Positions 46,503-60,393 of a stretch of DNA of 64,000 bases are shown here, in pieces. The translations under genes were made by a program, and so were the position numbers. Below the pieces are notes generated by a model. That model did no database searches. It was not told the origin of the DNA and saw nothing but the letters and a program-made list of their open reading frames with translations. Positions within the stretch are counted from its first letter, which is position 1. Each line of letters opens with the position of its first letter. The stretch covers positions 1 through 64,000 of the forward strand of contig NZ_AJLL01000077.1 of the NCBI RefSeq assembly GCF_000317225.1, read 5' to 3'. Source of the DNA: Fischerella thermalis PCC 7521 (GTDB taxonomy: Bacteria > Cyanobacteriota > Cyanobacteriia > Cyanobacteriales > Nostocaceae).

Positions 46503-46940
46503 GTGGAACTATCGTGTAAATCAGAATACGCAATTTTAGCCATGTTAGAATTGGCAGTCCACTACCAAAGTGGAGAACCGCTGCAAATTCGTCAAATTGC
46601 AGCACAACAGAATATACCTGATCGCTATCTAGAACAACTGTTAGCAATCTTGAGGCGTGGGGGTCTAATCAAGAGCCAACGAGGATCAAAAGGTGGTTAT
46701 TTGTTGGCACGAGAACCTTGGAAAATCACGCTTTTTGAAGTTTTGGGATGTGTGGAAGGCTTAGATAGGGTGCATACGTCTGAAGAAGATCAGCCTAAAA
46801 CTGTAGATGGTGCTGTTGTAGAAGAAATTTGGCAAGAAGCACGTCAAGCAGCAAACTCAGTTTTGCAAAAATACACACTTGCCGACCTTTGTGAAAAACG
46901 AGATTCCCGACGGCAGTTAGATATTATGTACTACATTTAA
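46503..46940 (+). CDS. Rrf2-family transcriptional regulator
   Basis: This 145-residue protein has the winged-helix DNA-binding domain (SCKSEYAILAMLELAVHY, then IAAQQNIPDRYLEQLLAILR, RRGGLIKSQRGSKGGYLLA) at residues 3-70. The three-Cys [Fe-S] ligand cluster of IscR is absent; Cys occur only singly, at about 5, 83 and 129. It is therefore more like CymR, a cysteine-metabolism repressor that senses through cysteine synthase, and cysK is the next gene. It starts with GTG. An 8-base palindrome AGTATACT (46457-46464), about 40 bases upstream, may be an operator; this is only a suggestion. Confidence 0.85.
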   Translation: MELSCKSEYAILAMLELAVHYQSGEPLQIRQIAAQQNIPDRYLEQLLAILRRGGLIKSQRGSKGGYLLAREPWKITLFEVLGCVEGLDRVHTSEEDQPKTVDGAVVEEIWQEARQAANSVLQKYTLADLCEKRDSRRQLDIMYYI

Positions 46941-46942
46941 TG

Positions 46943-47032
46943 ATTTTAATGATTTGTTGATTGTTGATTGTTGATTGTTGGTTGTTGTTTGTTGGTTGTT
47001 CCGATCAACTATCAACCACTAACCACCAACAC
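46943..47032. repeat. TTGATTGTTGATTGTTGGTTG array with complementary CAACCACTAACC arm
   Basis: Tandem TTGTTGATTGTTGA/TTGTTGGTTGTTTG units (46955-47000) face TCAACTATCAACCACTAACC (47004-47023). This hairpin is between the Rrf2 regulator and cysK. Confidence 0.65.
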
Positions 47033-47057
47033 AGTAGAATTGACCAAGGACAAAATA

Positions 47058-48017
47058 ATGCGAATTGCTCGTAACATTACAGAACTGATTGGGCGTACAC
47101 CCTTAGTACAGCTCAACCGTATTCCCCAAGCAGAAGGCTGTGTAGCCGAGATTGTCGTGAAGTTGGAAAGTATGAATCCAGCAGCATCAGTCAAAGATCG
47201 TATTGGGATCAGCATGATTAATGCTGCCGAAGAGGAGGGATTGATTACTCCTGGCAAAACAGTATTAGTAGAACCCACTTCTGGCAATACAGGGATAGCC
47301 TTAGCAATGGTAGCAGCAGCTAAAGGTTATCGGTTGATTTTAACAATGCCAGAGACAATGAGTGCTGAACGACGGGCGATGTTGCGGGCTTACGGTGCAG
47401 AACTCGAACTCACCCCAGGAATTGAAGGTATGAGTGGCGCGATTCGGCAAGCACAAGAGATTGTTGACAAACTACCCAATGCTTATATGTTGCAGCAATT
47501 TCGTAATCCTGCTAACCCGCAAATTCACCGGGAAACAACAGCAGAAGAAATCTGGGAAGATACTGAAGGTAAAGTAGATATACTTGTAGCAGGCGTTGGG
47601 ACTGGTGGCACAATTACGGGTGTTGCGGAAGTAATCAAAGCACGCAAACCAAGTATGAAGGCGATCGCAGTCGAACCAGCCAACAGTCCAGTTTTATCGG
47701 GAGGAAAACCCGGCCCACACAAAATTCAGGGAATTGGGGCAGGGTTTATTCCTCAGGTACTGAAAGTCCAATTAATTGACGAAATCATCACTGTTAGCGA
47801 TGATGAAGCGATCGCCTATGGTCGGCGTTTGGCAAGAGAGGAAGGATTACTTTCTGGCATTTCCAGTGGAGCTGCTTTGTGTGCAGCAATTCGTGTTGCC
47901 CAGCGTCCGGAGAATGAGGGACGCTTAATTGTGATGGTTCAGCCCAGTTTCGGGGAAAGGTATCTCAGTACACCTTTGTTTCAAGACTTAATAGAAGCCA
48001 GAGTAGGCAACATTTAA
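47058..48017 (+). CDS. cysK: Cysteine synthase A (O-acetylserine sulfhydrylase)
   Basis: This 319-residue PLP enzyme makes cysteine from O-acetylserine and sulfide. The lysine that binds PLP is in [18 protein letters not shown] (Lys near residue 43). [11 protein letters not shown] is the substrate loop, [13 protein letters not shown] the phosphate loop, and [13 protein letters not shown] lies near the end. I use the ATG at 47058 ([16 protein letters not shown]), preceded by AAGGA; the longer frame from 46968 runs through a repeat. It follows the Rrf2 regulator, which may control it. Confidence 0.94.
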
Positions 48018-48115
48018 ATGAGAACTTGTCCAAACTGTTAAAATTTTGAAGGCAGGTAAACTCAAGTTTTCACCTACCTTTCATCCCCGCGCTCTCTAGT
48101 GACGGGGCTTTCAGG

Positions 48116-48829
48116 ATGTTCTCTACAATGGTAAGTAATAACCACTACGAAACTCTTAAAGTAAATCCAGACGCCAGCCAAGCAGAGATTAAGCAAGCCT
48201 ATCGCCGTTTGGTCAAACAATATCATCCTGATAGTAATCAAAAAACGGCGGATAGTGAGCAAATTATCCGTATCAATGCAGCCTATGAAGTTTTAGGTGA
48301 TGCTGAGAATCGCAAAAGTTATGACCGACGAATTTATCACAAACTAAAGCAAAAATCCAGCAGCAGACAACAGCGCAGCACTGCTGCTGGGCAGCAATAC
48401 CAAACAAAAAGACAAACAGGACGAGACATTGATGAACAGATTGAAGAATGGCTACGTCAAGTTTATCAACCAGTTAGTCGCTTAGCATATGTGATTCTTT
48501 ATTCTTTGAAAACACAAATTGAAAAACTAGCAGCAGATCCCTTTGATAATGATCTTTTAGAAGATTTTCAGAAATACTTAAAAAATTGCCGAGAAGACCT
48601 GAAACAGGCACAAACCTCTTTTAGTTCCTTACCCAATCCCCCTAGTTTAGCAAGAGTGGCGGCTCATCTTTATTACTGCCTCAATCAAATTAGTGATGGA
48701 CTAGATGAATTGGAATATTTTCCCTTGAACTACGACGAAAGTTATTTGCACACAGGTCAAGAAATGTTTCGTATTGCCAAGGGATTGTACCGCGAGGCGC
48801 AAGAGTCGGTAGCAGTTTATAAGGGGTAG
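48116..48829 (+). CDS. DnaJ (J-domain) protein
   Basis: This 237-residue protein has an N-terminal J-domain (about residues 8-72) with HYETLKVNPDASQAEIKQAY and the essential HPD tripeptide (QYHPDSNQ), ending YEVLGDAENRKSYDRR. The remainder is helical, without the Gly/Phe or zinc-finger parts of classical DnaJ, so it is a type III J-protein that should recruit DnaK to a specific target. Either the ATG at 48116 or that at 48128 could be the start. It lies about 100 bases after cysK, past an imperfect hairpin near 48049-48081. Confidence 0.88.
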   Translation: MFSTMVSNNHYETLKVNPDASQAEIKQAYRRLVKQYHPDSNQKTADSEQIIRINAAYEVLGDAENRKSYDRRIYHKLKQKSSSRQQRSTAAGQQYQTKRQTGRDIDEQIEEWLRQVYQPVSRLAYVILYSLKTQIEKLAADPFDNDLLEDFQKYLKNCREDLKQAQTSFSSLPNPPSLARVAAHLYYCLNQISDGLDELEYFPLNYDESYLHTGQEMFRIAKGLYREAQESVAVYKG

Positions 48830-52013: not shown

Positions 52014-54590
52014 ATGACATCACCAGAAACAGTGATCTGGCTACGAGAACGCACAGCTTTAGGAATTCTATCGCCTGAATCCTTGAGTGCGATCGCGCAA
52101 GCCCTCGAAGAAAAAGTTTTCCCAGCGAACCATAAAATAGCTACTGAAGCGACTGCTCCAGAGGCGCTTTATATTCTCTTGGAAGGTAAGCTCGAAAGTG
52201 AGAGCAGTAACAAAAATAACCCGAGTTTAACTGTTGGTTTTCTGCCTGGATCGATCATTCATTTACAAGAAATACTTTTAGATGAGTTAGCCCAACGCAC
52301 AATTAATACTGTGACAGAATGTCATTTTTGGGTTGTGCCTGCGATAGTATTTAAAGAAATAATTGGCAAATATCCGGAGATTGCTCAGTTTGTCTCCCGG
52401 ATGCTCGCTCAAGAAGTAGCACAGTTAGCCTCTGCTTTTAACTACGAACAGGAACGCTCTTTAGCATTACGCCCATATTTAGTTACCAAAGCCCGGCGTG
52501 GTATTGTAGGGACAAATCGCTATGCTGTGCGTCTACGAGAACAAATTCGCGAAGCTGCAAGCGATCGCACATCTGTATTGATTTTCGGCGAACCAGGGCT
52601 AGAAAAAGATAATGTTGCAGCCTTAATTCATTTTGGTTCCAAGTATCGCCGCGAACCAATTATCAAAGTTAACTGTGGCATCCTACAAACTAGTGGCGCA
52701 GAGTTATTTGGGCGTGCTGGTGGCAAAAGCGGACTTTTAGAATGGTTGGGAGAAGGTACTCTCATCCTCAACAATATCCAAGAAACTCCTCCAGAATTAC
52801 TCCCAAAAATTAAACAATTATTACAAGATAATACGTATATTCCCGTAACTCGCTCCGGCGAACCAGACGCTGAACCCCGCACCAGTCGCGCTCGCATTAT
52901 GATAGTTGCGGAAAAAGCTCAGCCGCAAATCGAACGTTGCGTTGACCGAATTATCAAAGTCCCGCCCCTACGGATACGCAAAGCTGATATTAATGCCCAG
53001 CTCGAATACTATATCAGTCTCTACACTCGTGCTAGAGGTATTCCCAAACCACATGTTACACCAGAAGCTCTACGTCGCTTGCAGTCCTATGACTTCCCTG
53101 GCAATTTAAAAGAGTTACAAAGCTTGGTAGAACGAGCAATTATGCAAGCAGGAGAAGCAAGGGAGCTAACAGAAGAGATTTTCTGGTCAGCAGAAACTAA
53201 GAAAAAGCGATTTCGGCTAAATCTTTTGAACGCTTATCCCCGTTTGCGAAAGTTTCTTCGCAGTCCGTGGTGGCCAGATCGGATTAATTATGGCTTTACC
53301 GTTGCTGCTTTTGCGTTCATCGTTGCAGTATTATTTGTCGGGCCGCAAACACGCGATCGCAATTTTGCTTTAAATTTATTCTGGGCTTGGTGGTGGCCTG
53401 TTTTTCTCTTCTTATTTCCCTTTCTGGGGCGGATTTGGTGTGCTGTTTGTCCGTTCATGATTTACGGTGAAATTACGCAGAAAATTTCAACACACTTGTT
53501 TCCTAAGCAACTCAAGCGCTGGCCACGAGAAGAAGCCGAAAAATGGGGCGGCTGGTTTTTGTTTGGCTTATTTACCCTAATTTTCTTGTGGGAAGAACTT
53601 TGGCAGTTGGAAAATACTGCTTATCTCTCCGGCTGTTTACTTCTGCTAATTACTGCTGGCGCGATGATTTTTTCTGCCATTTTTGAGAGGCGGTTTTGGT
53701 GTCGCTATCTTTGTCCCATCGGCGGGATGAATGGTTTATTCGCCAAACTCTCAATGACAGAACTCCGCGCCCAACAGGGTATTTGTTCTGCTACTTGCAC
53801 CACCTACCAATGTTACAAAGGCGGGCCACAAAAAGGCGAAGGCATGGAAACCAACGGTTGTCCTTTATACTCTCACCCCGCCCAACTAGAAGAAAACAGA
53901 GATTGTGTACTATGCATGACTTGTCTCAAAGCCTGTCCCCATCGCTCAGTTGAGTTTAATTTGCGTCCCCCTGGGATTGAATTGTGGACAACTCATGTAC
54001 CTCGCAAATATGAAGTCGCTTTGTTGTGTTTACTTTTGGGTGGAGTATATTTGCATCACCTGAGTGAGTTGCAATCCTGGCTAGGATTGCAAATAGATTT
54101 AAATCAGTTTTTCCCGCACTTAGGCTTTTCCCTACTAGCTTTGCTGATTCCAGCAGCCGTCACCTTCCTAGCCTACGGGTTGATTAAAATCTATTGCTGG
54201 TTGAATAACTATATCTCCTCTGCGTCCTCTGCGGTTAAAATCCCCAACCGAATTAAGGTGCGCTCATTTACAGAACTTGCCTATGGCTATTTACCGTTGG
54301 TATTAGGAGGTAACTTAGCTCATTATCTGCCCTTAGGCTTGGGTGAAGGAGGACGAATTTTACCAGTCTTTTTTGCAACTTTTGGTTTGGATGGTGGACA
54401 GTTGCCATTTGTGGTTGCACATCCGGCTGTAATAGCCTTTTTACAGGGAACAACTCTGATTTTTTCAGTACTGTTATCGATAGTACTTACACAAAAAATT
54501 GCTCGGCAACCATTGCGTGTAATGTTATGGCAACACTTAGCAGCGATCGCGTTGGGAGTAAGTATGTGGCAGATTATTGTGTCTCGGTAA
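52014..54590 (+). CDS. cNMP-binding domain, degenerate sigma54-type AAA domain and polyferredoxin membrane module in one protein
   Basis: This is an 858-residue fusion. (1) Residues about 18-135 are a CRP-like cyclic-nucleotide-binding fold (VFPANHKIATEATAPEALYI). (2) About 155-385 is an AAA domain like that of sigma54 activators, but Walker A reads GEPGLEKD, Walker B GTLILNNI (Asp/Glu replaced by Asn), and the GAFTGA loop is absent after ELFGRAGG. (3) From about 423 there are several membrane helices with a NapH/RdxA-like metal-binding core: CAVCPF, CRYLCPIGG and the 4Fe-4S motif CVLCMTCLKACPHRS near 632. There is no HTH domain. Cyanobacteria lack sigma54, so it is probably a membrane redox protein with a regulatory, non-ATPase cytosolic part. 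It precedes the channel gene by 232 bases. Confidence 0.85.
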   Translation: MTSPETVIWLRERTALGILSPESLSAIAQALEEKVFPANHKIATEATAPEALYILLEGKLESESSNKNNPSLTVGFLPGSIIHLQEILLDELAQRTINTVTECHFWVVPAIVFKEIIGKYPEIAQFVSRMLAQEVAQLASAFNYEQERSLALRPYLVTKARRGIVGTNRYAVRLREQIREAASDRTSVLIFGEPGLEKDNVAALIHFGSKYRREPIIKVNCGILQTSGAELFGRAGGKSGLLEWLGEGTLILNNIQETPPELLPKIKQLLQDNTYIPVTRSGEPDAEPRTSRARIMIVAEKAQPQIERCVDRIIKVPPLRIRKADINAQLEYYISLYTRARGIPKPHVTPEALRRLQSYDFPGNLKELQSLVERAIMQAGEARELTEEIFWSAETKKKRFRLNLLNAYPRLRKFLRSPWWPDRINYGFTVAAFAFIVAVLFVGPQTRDRNFALNLFWAWWWPVFLFLFPFLGRIWCAVCPFMIYGEITQKISTHLFPKQLKRWPREEAEKWGGWFLFGLFTLIFLWEELWQLENTAYLSGCLLLLITAGAMIFSAIFERRFWCRYLCPIGGMNGLFAKLSMTELRAQQGICSATCTTYQCYKGGPQKGEGMETNGCPLYSHPAQLEENRDCVLCMTCLKACPHRSVEFNLRPPGIELWTTHVPRKYEVALLCLLLGGVYLHHLSELQSWLGLQIDLNQFFPHLGFSLLALLIPAAVTFLAYGLIKIYCWLNNYISSASSAVKIPNRIKVRSFTELAYGYLPLVLGGNLAHYLPLGLGEGGRILPVFFATFGLDGGQLPFVVAHPAVIAFLQGTTLIFSVLLSIVLTQKIARQPLRVMLWQHLAAIALGVSMWQIIVSR

Positions 54591-54822: not shown

Positions 54823-56514
54823 ATGAAACCTCGAATCATTGTCTGTGGTTTAGGACGCACTGGATATAAAGTTTTTCGTTTGCTGAGACAACAAGGGGCG
54901 TTAGTCGTTGGCATTCATCATAAACCAGTTCCAGGCGAACGAGCAGGAGATGTCATTGTCGGCGATCTGCACGCAGCTAGCACTCTGAAAGCAGCTGGCA
55001 TTCAGCAGGCGCACACCTTAGTTATCGCTGGAGGTGACGATGCACTCAATTTGCGAATTATGATGCAAGCGCGGGTACTTAATCCGCGAATTCGGATTAT
55101 CAACCGCTTTTTTAACACCAGTTTGGGAGAAAGGCTGGATCACGCGGTTCCAGAACATTTGACTATGAGTGTTGCGGGATTGGCAGCACCCGTATTTACT
55201 TTTGCTGCATTGGGTAGCCAAGCAATTGGACAAATCAAGCTGTTTCAGCAAACTTGGCCGATTCACGAAGAGTATATAGATGAACATCACCCGTGGCGCG
55301 ATCGCAAACTCAGTGAGTTGTGGAACGATCAGACACGGATGCTGATTTACTACATGCCGGCAGAAGGCGAGGTGGATTTAGTCTCTGCTGTAGTCACGGG
55401 GCATAAATTAAAAGTAGGCGATCGCTTAATTGTGGGAACTCAGCCCCGGATGCGTTGTATTCGCAGATCAATGATTGCCAAACTGCTGAAAGTGTTTACC
55501 AGTCTACGCCAATTTCAGCAACATGCTCAAGCAGTGGTAGTCATGTCTATAGTGTTGCTGGTGATTATTGCGATCGCTACACTTATCTACACTTCCACTG
55601 AAAGAAGTGTTTCTATTATTGATGCTCTTTACTTTGCTGTGGGTATGATTACGGGGGCAGGTGGTAATGATCAAGTTGTTGAAAAAGCTCCTACGAGTGT
55701 GAGATTATTTACCGTATTGATGATGCTGGTAGGAGCTGCGGTCATAGGTCTTTTCTATGCCTTACTGAACGATTTTGTTTTAGGTAGTCGCTTCAAACAA
55801 TTTTTAGATGCAGCACGGATTCCCCATCGTCATCATTATATTGTCTGTGGCTTGGGAGGAATTGGGATTAAAATTGTTCAGCAACTCCACAGCAGTGGCC
55901 ATGAAGTCATCGTCATTGAACGTGATACCAATAATAGATTTGTCAACACAGCCCGGGGATTGGGTATTCCCGTCATTCACGGTGATGGTAGCTTTGCCGA
56001 AATTCTCAAAGTCAGTAATTTAGAGAATGCATCTGCACTGATTGCTGTCACTAACGATGATGCTACAAACATGGAAATTGCTCTCAAAGCCAAAGCCATC
56101 ACACCCAAAGTACCAGTGATTGTCCATTACGCCGATCCAGATTTTGCCCGCATGGCACAACAGGTCTTTGATTTTGAGGCTGTTTTAAGTCCCGCCGAAC
56201 TTGCTGCGCCAGCCTTCGCCGCCGCCGCTTTAGGTGGACGCATCCTTGGCAATGGGATCACCGCCGATAGCCTTTGGGTAGCTTTTGCAACATTAATTAC
56301 ACCTTCCCATCCTTTTTGTGGACAACGGGTGAAAAATGCAGCCATGGACGCGGATTTTGTGCCGTTGTATGTGGAGACAAATAACCAGGAAATTCACGGC
56401 TGGGATTTACTGGAAATCAACCTCTGTGCAGGAGATATTTTATACCTGACCATGCCAGCAAATCGTTTGCATCAGTTGTGGCGTTATACACCCTCACAGG
56501 TGATGGCGAGTTGA
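54823..56514 (+). CDS. Two-RCK potassium-channel-like protein (TrkA-N duplicated) with non-canonical filter
   Basis: This 563-residue protein has an N-terminal RCK/TrkA-N Rossmann domain (RIIVCGLGRTGYKVFRLLRQ). Two membrane helices (about 236-260 and 290-315) flank a pore-loop-like segment, and a second TrkA-N domain with TrkA-C follows (HYIVCGLGGIGIKIVQQLHS from about 337). The loop reads ITGAGGNDQV where potassium channels have TxGYGD, so selectivity may differ or be lost. GLGGIGIK and ERDTNN suggest NAD(H) binding. It may regulate or carry ions in response to nucleotide state. It lies downstream of the cNMP/AAA/ferredoxin fusion and may be functionally linked. Confidence 0.82.
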   Translation: MKPRIIVCGLGRTGYKVFRLLRQQGALVVGIHHKPVPGERAGDVIVGDLHAASTLKAAGIQQAHTLVIAGGDDALNLRIMMQARVLNPRIRIINRFFNTSLGERLDHAVPEHLTMSVAGLAAPVFTFAALGSQAIGQIKLFQQTWPIHEEYIDEHHPWRDRKLSELWNDQTRMLIYYMPAEGEVDLVSAVVTGHKLKVGDRLIVGTQPRMRCIRRSMIAKLLKVFTSLRQFQQHAQAVVVMSIVLLVIIAIATLIYTSTERSVSIIDALYFAVGMITGAGGNDQVVEKAPTSVRLFTVLMMLVGAAVIGLFYALLNDFVLGSRFKQFLDAARIPHRHHYIVCGLGGIGIKIVQQLHSSGHEVIVIERDTNNRFVNTARGLGIPVIHGDGSFAEILKVSNLENASALIAVTNDDATNMEIALKAKAITPKVPVIVHYADPDFARMAQQVFDFEAVLSPAELAAPAFAAAALGGRILGNGITADSLWVAFATLITPSHPFCGQRVKNAAMDADFVPLYVETNNQEIHGWDLLEINLCAGDILYLTMPANRLHQLWRYTPSQVMAS

Positions 56515-59285: not shown

Positions 59286-60261
59286 CTAAAGTGCAAAGAA
59301 ATGTGCAAAATTATCTGTCCGTAAAGCAACTGGATCTATAATGTGCGATCGCAAAATTTCATCCATCCGTTCCTCAGATATACCAGCTTCTTTCTGGAGG
59401 CGAGATAAATAGATACTGGGTGCATTACCACCAATAAATTTGTTAGTTCTAGATGATAAAGGAGTTTTGTTTACAACACTATCGTAAAGTTCGGGTTTAA
59501 TACCATTCTTGTCACACCAACTTCGAGGAAAAATATGATGAATATCAATAGATTCCTCAAAGTACTTCAAAGTGTCAATTTCAAAACCCGTAAGGAAATC
59601 GCATCCTCCATCTCGCAATAGCAAAGCAGACAAACCTTTATAAGCAGCACTGCGGCGTGTATAGAGTCTTACTAGTCGATTTGGAGCAAAATTAGCATCT
59701 TTGATTGTGTCAGGTTCAGAATCACCAGATTCAATCCATCTCAACACTTGCGTCAAGTCTTTAGCAATTCGGCTTTCAATCGCACTACTATAAAGCTCGC
59801 CAAAAACTCCACACCAATACCAACGTACCAACTTAGCACGTATTGGATCTGTATCACTGCGATCGCCTAATACTGCAAAGATAGCTGCCAGAACTGTTAG
59901 TTGTGGTTGATAAGGTAAATCTCTAGCAGAAAATATTTTTTGTGTATAGAGTAATTTGGCAGCTTTTTCAAATCCCTTAGTGACTTTATCAGCCCAATCT
60001 TTGTATTCTTCTAATTTCAGATTTAGAATATCTTTCAATTGGACGAGCCTCAAACCGCACATCAGGATTACCAGTTTCCAACATCATAACAACTCCAACT
60101 GGATAGGAGAGCGAAATGCTGGCTAATATGCTACGTATCTGCTCATCATCCCAAACCCAAGGACGCTGAAAATCGGGTAGCTGTGTTTTTCCATCCTTCA
60201 TACTTCGCAAAATATCAAAAAGTGCTTCAGTAGTATGGTCAAAACTTTTGATCGCTGGCAT
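59286..60261 (-). pseudogene. Internally deleted DUF262/DUF1524 (GmrSD-like) gene
   Basis: From 60261, a DUF262 N-terminus is open: MPAIKSFDHTTEALFDILRS, then GKTQLPDFQRPWVWDDEQIR and SYPVGVVMMLETGNPDVRFE. Near 60020-60040 the frame changes and the protein continues in another frame as the C-terminal part, with the DUF1524 HNH motif IDIHHIFPRSWCDKNG and TNKFIGGNAPSIYL. The normal middle, including the DGQQRLTSL motif essential for nucleotide cleavage, is missing, so about 200 residues have been lost in addition to the frame change. Full-length relatives are modification-dependent restriction or antiphage nucleases. It stands alone, not in a defence island. Confidence 0.8.
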
Positions 60262-60393
60262 ATCTTTGAAATATATATGAGAAAGACATGTTTTTAGCTT
60301 TCCCAAATTCCGCCTCAGCCTAACTTTGATCAACAAACATTAAGGCAGGTTACGGCTACGTCTAATATCAAGTCTGCTTAATTACCTATAATC

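Follow-up and report, generated by a model that had tools for sequence, protein, structure and literature searches.

NapH, NosR and RdhC typify a group of redox proteins (Fer4_5, PF12801) built from hydrophobic segments, two Cys-Pro motifs and two ferredoxin-like sets of four cysteines, and the σ54 activators, or bacterial enhancer-binding proteins (bEBPs; NtrC1, NifA, FleQ and PspF among them), are built around an AAA+ core and lid. VpsR of Vibrio cholerae, a soluble DNA-binding regulator, is a degenerate bEBP in which the GAFTGA motif is absent and Walker B reads ND. The membrane part of NapH has been proposed to oxidise quinol, and both Cys motifs of NapH, like the first of NosR, matter for integrity or partner binding or for electron transfer (PMC5928378; here and below, cited papers are represented by excerpts). 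We examined a 64,000-nucleotide stretch of the cyanobacterium Fischerella thermalis PCC 7521 (contig NZ_AJLL01000077.1, positions 1 to 64,000; hereafter the window) in which one gene encodes both kinds of part: a CRP-like domain and a σ54-activator-type AAA+ domain lie ahead of a NapH-like iron-sulfur (Fe-S) membrane module and a C-terminal hydrophobic module (Table 1).

The membrane module of this product (the focal protein) has the Cys-Pro motifs, hydrophobic segments and ferredoxin-like sets of NapH, NosR and RdhC, but its first motif is CX2CP rather than CX3CP, Pfam found no flavin mononucleotide (FMN)-binding domain in the focal protein, and a long CRP-AAA head and the C-terminal hydrophobic module are added to it. 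The head resembles many solved bEBPs (Z 15–18) and shares with them the P-loop lysine of Walker A and the acidic residue after it, whereas the Walker B glutamate, GAFTGA, the arginine fingers and a helix-turn-helix (HTH) are missing and no RpoN was found in the genome. VpsR likewise has an altered Walker B and no GAFTGA, but it retains GESGTGKE, while the focal protein has no HTH that we could find and a membrane module after its lid. We consider the chances about evenly balanced that the focal protein is an electron-transfer protein akin to NapH and NosR whose membrane redox module is gated or assembled by a cytoplasmic head that does not hydrolyse ATP. Each half belongs to a known kind. Neither the fusion nor its spread nor the link of a sister clade to cysK (see below) was found described in the excerpts of the open-licence papers searched, and all three are new relative to that literature. 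Searches of phage and defence libraries returned only AAA-domain and Fe-S resemblances.

Pfam placed cNMP_binding, Sigma54_activat, AAA_lid_14 and two stretches of Fer4_5 on the focal protein, all over their curated cut-offs, and a single copy of the gene was found in its own genome. An earlier note, made from the sequence alone, had raised the question of whether the fusion is conserved in cyanobacteria or whether the frame joins two genes by a sequencing error. All three parts were present in a single open reading frame (ORF) in 133 of the 149 matching loci compared (79 of the 80 named loci); in the remaining 16 the N-terminal domain was absent, the protein was split or, at L138, it was a different protein. 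The protein was divided over two ORFs in four loci (L099, L133, L135 and L137). Since the frame is conserved across these loci, we ruled out a chance frame or joining error and conclude that the fusion is conserved in cyanobacteria.

Sampling of 386 genomes from the phylum turned up relatives in 105 (E ≤ 1e-20); with a sister protein as query and every clade counted, 250 of 388 genomes of the class had one (E ≤ 1e-100). The closest named relative was that of Fischerella muscicola PCC 7414 (98% identity); the named-genome set holds the best 80 of 510 confirmed stretches and is biased to close relatives. Our alignment comprised 99 rows (94 genes, five of them present twice): 45 of the focal type, two of a tandem-AAA type, for which the second AAA copy was used, 10 of a marine type and 42 of a sister clade. 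On a redox-module tree built by a quick method with no bootstraps, the sister, marine and tandem-AAA groups each formed one clade (SH-aLRT, an approximate likelihood ratio test, 100), and the focal-type label required three changes, one of them forced by well-supported branches. The root was unsure, the outgroup branches being very long.

We compared the ratio of nonsynonymous to synonymous change (dN/dS) between the focal gene and five relatives, at dS 0.41–1.5 with the top values near saturation, and obtained 0.05–0.10 for the AAA domain, 0.035–0.07 for the redox core and 0.12–0.18 for the CRP-like domain. A sixth pair, with L031, was set aside as having too few changes (AAA 0.31 on a dS of 0.018). 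Across 48 aligned sequences, the redox core had 158 invariant residues out of 265, the AAA domain 86 of 231, the C-terminal module 50 of 198 and the CRP-like domain 12 of 140. The low ratios for the AAA domain argue for purifying selection and make it unlikely that the domain is a relic; together with its conservation in the family, they fit the earlier description of the AAA fold as repurposed.

Residues 464–649 matched the NapH/MauN-like model (NCBIfam TIGR02163) at 51.6 bits, under its cut-off of 213.05, and the focal protein was the only Fer4_5 protein found in its own genome. Twelve cysteines were present in 99 of 99 rows, namely 476 and 479 (CX2CP), 563 and 567 (CX3CP) and two sets of four, and the same twelve thus mark the redox core of all 42 sister proteins. 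Four far relatives outside the cyanobacteria had only seven of the twelve in common. The invariant cysteines and the TIGR02163-like match support a predicted membrane module with 4Fe-4S and NapH-like Cys motifs; single Fer4 models matched under cut-off, and the putative ferredoxin sets are read from the sequence. NapH-like systems in one survey carry an FMN-binding domain, that survey having covered flavinylation clusters, which are rare in Cyanobacteria (PMC8238504). Hydropathy peaks began at about residue 431, bar a small one at residue 80, suggesting several membrane segments. Redox modules that lack the CRP-AAA head were found in Deinococcus ficus (30% identity across 93% of the query) and, at greater distance, in haloarchaea and Sulfurovum.

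The fold of the AAA domain is that of a σ54 activator, as had been proposed. Sigma54_activat matched at 53.1 bits against a cut-off of 20.2, and the nearest solved proteins by sequence were NifA, VpsR and FleQ. An AlphaFold model of residues 1–395, made with 33 sequences, had a mean predicted local distance difference test score (pLDDT) of 75.2 and a predicted template modelling score (pTM) of 0.45, with weak spots at residues 135–168 (pLDDT < 50) and at the P-loop block, residues 191–200 (64). The top solved match of this head model was NtrC1 (1ny5; Z 18.2, root mean square deviation 5.0, 220 aligned residues), and Foldseek agreed.

The motifs quoted in the earlier note, GEPGLEKD (residues 192–199) and GTLILNNI (248–255), are as it gave them, and no GAFTGA loop follows LFGR. 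The domain had been called devoid of ATPase motifs, which holds for Walker B and not for Walker A. In Walker B the focal protein has NN in place of DE; the glutamate was present in none of the 99 rows and the aspartate in 29, including 8 of the 10 marine-type rows. Walker A is modified, and its lysine (K198) was present in every one of the 99 rows. The loop that contacts σ54 is indeed absent, with a GAFTGA-like motif in 0 of 99 rows. Opposite R300 of FleQ, the place of an arginine finger, 97 of 97 rows had a gap, and the corresponding segment of NifA and FleQ is also absent from the focal protein. With the Walker B glutamate, GAFTGA and the arginine fingers all gone, the domain lacks the residues for hydrolysis and σ54 contact. 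Pfam found no HTH in the focal protein at E values up to 1.

In all 57 focal-, tandem- and marine-type rows the Walker A lysine is followed by Asp; in 41 of the 42 sisters, whose P-loop is classical, Thr follows it. An acidic residue in this place is the rule in σ54 activators (PMC7175178), so what really sets the focal Walker A apart is the Glu that replaces Gly immediately before the lysine. That place was occupied in the 45 focal-type rows by Glu in 30 (the focal protein included), Gly in 14 and Asp in one. Reception of cyclic di-GMP as in FleQ was not favoured: FleQ positions 185, 186, 330 and 334, which we take to be among the residues for this ligand, correspond to A, L, Y and L of the focal protein, with only R144 retained (as R162). 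One lineage (f55) carries a gene, L248:7346-10708, with two tandem σ54-type AAA domains by Pfam, the first with the P-loop GEAGVGKV and the second with GEPGLGKD; L249:7643-11005 resembles it by length and start.

The CRP-like domain matched the cNMP_binding (cyclic nucleotide-binding) model at 34.1 bits against a cut-off of 27.5, and cNMP domains were among the matches of the head model. The signature of the cyclic-nucleotide phosphate cassette is Gly-Glu plus Arg; by alignment, Glu86 and Arg95 of the focal protein fall in the cassette places, with Gln instead of Gly. Both Glu and Arg were retained by 18 of 48 near relatives, by 13 of the 45 focal-type rows and by none of the 42 sisters, and Glu86 alone was present in 46 of the 48 near relatives. 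No full CRP-like domain was present in three of the 45 focal-type rows (L174–L176), at least nine of the 10 marine-type rows and one sister (L170); in the marine-type L161, L163, L165, L166 and L178 the domain is mostly or wholly absent. The cyclic-nucleotide sensor named in the earlier note is less secure than it was put there: the beta-roll fold is clear and two cassette residues of the focal protein align, but the pair is no trait of the family and some members have no such domain. Judged from these residues, cyclic-nucleotide sensing would at best be a trait of some family members.

Our searches bore out, as far as they went, the statement that cyanobacteria have no σ54. Profile searches of the host's own genome found neither the DNA-binding nor the core-binding domain of RpoN (0 of 1 each), and 194 genomes of the class gave just four short matches of 33–41 residues, one of them over cut-off, with no whole RpoN among them. 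The RpoN DNA-binding domain was likewise found in none of five genomes, comprising G106 and four other carriers. The earlier note had named, as a refuting result, a closest homologue with intact Walker motifs and a downstream rpoN; relatives whose P-loop is intact do exist, but no RpoN domain was found in the three such genomes searched (G213, G286 and G157). PF00158 matched over cut-off at eight places in the host's own genome, the focal one at 57 bits and seven others at 24–33 bits; because PF00158 also matches in 14 of 14 control genomes, the seven are probably other AAA+ ATPases. In a 660-residue protein of G106 (L138:952-2931) Pfam finds two σ54-type AAA domains; Walker, GAYTGA and finger motifs are all intact in the one that was aligned, and neither RpoN domain was found in this 98%-complete genome.

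The sister clade differs in its surroundings. Downstream of the sister gene and on its strand, cysK was the first, second or third gene in 27 of 42 loci (within 150 bp in 19 of them) versus 0 of 93 focal-type loci; the 27 belong to 10 coded families and two plasmids, are related to one another and do not count as independent. The sister count omits L234, from the same plasmid as L179 and still part of the set of 43, and the focal-type loci, mostly from Nostocales, comprise 80 that are the best named matches and include both tandem-AAA loci. At least 2 kb of downstream sequence was available for 87 of the 93 and 37 of the 42. Anywhere in the sister loci, we counted rhodanese in 16, psbA in nine, petC in nine, an SQR-like gene in eight, ArsR in seven, TauE in five, hemN in five, and cydA and cydB in four; the numbers for the focal-type loci were 0, 1, 1, 0, 6, 0, 0 and 0. 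Neighbour genes were named through NCBIfam, Pfam or plasmid annotation for one or two representatives, and the names were extended to the others by clustering; the SQR-like protein scores under the cut-off of its own model, and TauE, cydB and, outside the plasmid, ArsR are names that we presume. Plasmids of Pseudanabaena galeata and Aulosira laxa each carry a sister gene, cysK, petC and psbA.

A psbA1-rhodanese-DUF2892-petC cluster is induced by low oxygen in Acaryochloris and Synechocystis (PMC5295598), in a paper whose excerpts make no mention of a CRP-AAA-NapH fusion protein; many sister loci hold genes of such clusters, whereas focal-type loci are without such clusters. Polysulfide raises expression of cysK2, rhodanese, tauE and pdo in Synechococcus PCC 7002 and lowers that of sqr (PMC12466478). 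These parallels place the sister clade in a low-oxygen or sulfide setting and offer, by homology, a hint for the focal protein.

In the explanation to which we give even odds, the membrane module would exchange electrons with the quinone pool, from or to it, via two putative [4Fe-4S] clusters facing the cytoplasm. The head, which combines a CRP-like domain with an AAA+ domain apparently taken from a σ54 activator, would no longer hydrolyse ATP; its retained P-loop most probably serves to bind a nucleotide or a partner, and a bound/unbound or oligomer switch could then gate or assemble the redox module. That the head controls a membrane redox chain, as the earlier note suggested, is plausible. 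A fuller version, in which a σ54-activator AAA+ domain has left transcription to become a non-hydrolysing, nucleotide-responsive gate on an electron-transfer protein found widely among the σ54-less cyanobacteria and the classical-P-loop sister has been recruited with cysK to a sulfide/low-oxygen programme, is distinctly less probable, and we put it forward tentatively. On that version, a cytoplasmic ligand would tune, inside one polypeptide, the passage of electrons into or out of the plastoquinone pool.

Several observations weigh against a gated electron-transfer protein. The Glu that replaces the P-loop Gly in 30 of the 45 focal-type rows could spoil nucleotide binding, the SD2 arginine 334 of FleQ is Leu in the focal protein, and sensor II is variable. 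No solved structure was found for the redox module (with the focal sequence as query, nothing scored below E 0.12), and a full-length model had a mean pLDDT of 59.7, with the Fe-S core mostly below 50; the C-terminal hydrophobic part of this model was mostly at 72–87. The sulfide link is the sister clade's and transfers to the focal protein by homology only, 15 of the 42 sister loci have no cysK in the place described (one of them ends early downstream), and the neighbours of the focal clade point to no function.

The main rival reverses the direction of the signal: the membrane Fe-S module would sense redox state or sulfide, and the CRP-like/AAA head would be its output, docking cytoplasmic partners. 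We rate this as unlikely, though it deserves serious attention, since the head resembles signalling proteins, pseudo-ATPase scaffolds dock partners likewise, the sister clade is located in sulfide/low-oxygen clusters, and CprC, a relative of RdhC, was initially held to be a regulator given its likeness to NosR and NirI (PMC5928378). However, no output partner next to the focal clade is conserved throughout its range, the redox core evolves more slowly than any other part, as in an enzyme or carrier, and at least nine of the 10 marine-type rows do without a full CRP-like domain.

We find it more doubtful still that the head is vestigial or a simple spacer and the redox module works alone. The loss of catalytic motifs across the family would suit such a history, as would the existence of headless modules in Deinococcus, haloarchaea and Sulfurovum and a CRP-like domain that is the fastest-evolving part and is absent from three focal-type rows, one sister row and nearly all marine-type rows; yet the AAA domain has a dN/dS of 0.05–0.10, 86 of its 231 residues are unchanged in all 48 sequences, its P-loop lysine is invariant, and the whole domain has been doubled in one lineage. 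The least probable reading, which we regard as quite improbable, is that of a σ70-type regulator in which the degenerate activator domain still acts on transcription with no ATP hydrolysis, like VpsR or FleQ. VpsR, with its altered Walker B and missing GAFTGA, is among the closest solved matches, and FleQ works at σ70 promoters without hydrolysing ATP (PMC10723142), but the focal protein has no HTH that we found, its lid leads straight into the membrane module, and the membrane core is conserved far beyond the needs of a regulator's anchor.

Table 1. Parts of the focal gene, with positions in the window
Feature	Position	Strand	Basis
Whole gene, 858 residues: CRP-like + pseudo-AAA+ + NapH-like Fe-S membrane module	52014..54590	+	ATG start, one unbroken ORF
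CRP-like beta-roll, residues 34-119, cyclic-nucleotide cassette partly retained	52113..52370	+	Pfam cNMP_binding E 2.7e-8; alignment; model matches to cNMP domains
σ54-activator-type AAA+ core, residues 164-282	52503..52859	+	Pfam PF00158 E 3.8e-14; VIA-align Z 18.2 to 1ny5
Modified Walker A GEPGLEKD, residues 192-199, K198 invariant	52587..52610	+	Alignment
Site of absent GAFTGA (L1) loop, residues 231-241	52704..52736	+	Alignment to NifA and FleQ
Altered Walker B GTLILNNI, residues 248-255, D and E replaced by N	52755..52778	+	Alignment
Sensor I region without arginine-finger segment, residues 293-320	52890..52973	+	Alignment
AAA lid, residues 320-386	52971..53171	+	Pfam AAA_lid_14 E 1.1e-11
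NapH-like membrane Fe-S core, residues 396-660	53199..53993	+	Pfam Fer4_5; TIGR02163-like; dN/dS 0.035-0.07
First Cys motif CAVCP, residues 476-480	53439..53453	+	Cys in 99/99 rows
Second Cys motif CRYLCP, residues 563-568	53700..53717	+	Cys in 99/99 rows
Two four-Cys sets (591, 595, 600, 616; 631, 634, 637, 641), putative [4Fe-4S] ligands	53784..53936	+	Cys in 99/99 rows; weak Fer4 matches below cut-off
C-terminal hydrophobic module, residues 661-858	53994..54587	+	Hydropathy; conservation

Two genes recur near the focal family, mostly within Nostocales: an LtrA-like gene, a name that we presume, in 28 of 101 loci and a TrkA-N channel in 17 of 101. The latter cluster includes the gene downstream of the focal gene (window 54823-56514), whose product is potassium-channel-like, with two TrkA_N stretches and Ion_trans_2. 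At window 46503-48829 lies a row made up of an Rrf2 regulator, cysK and what we take to be a DnaJ-like gene. This block stands a few kb from focal-family genes in the window, at L031 (same genus) and, by clustering and in the opposite orientation, at the far relative L177; we dropped it as a guide to function because three loci are too few. Two overlapping ORFs on the minus strand at window 59286-60336, the upstream one GmrSD_N-like (PF03235) and the other without a Pfam match, are possibly one broken restriction-type gene.

If the focal protein is indeed a gated electron-transfer protein, the ATPase of a transcription activator would prove reusable for a task other than transcription, that of switching electron flow in a membrane. 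The sister clade, with its cysK neighbour and its psbA/petC clusters of the low-oxygen/sulfide-linked kind, provides a concrete test bed for this idea. Were it true, the family would add a widely conserved, unassigned component to the cyanobacterial quinone/redox network.

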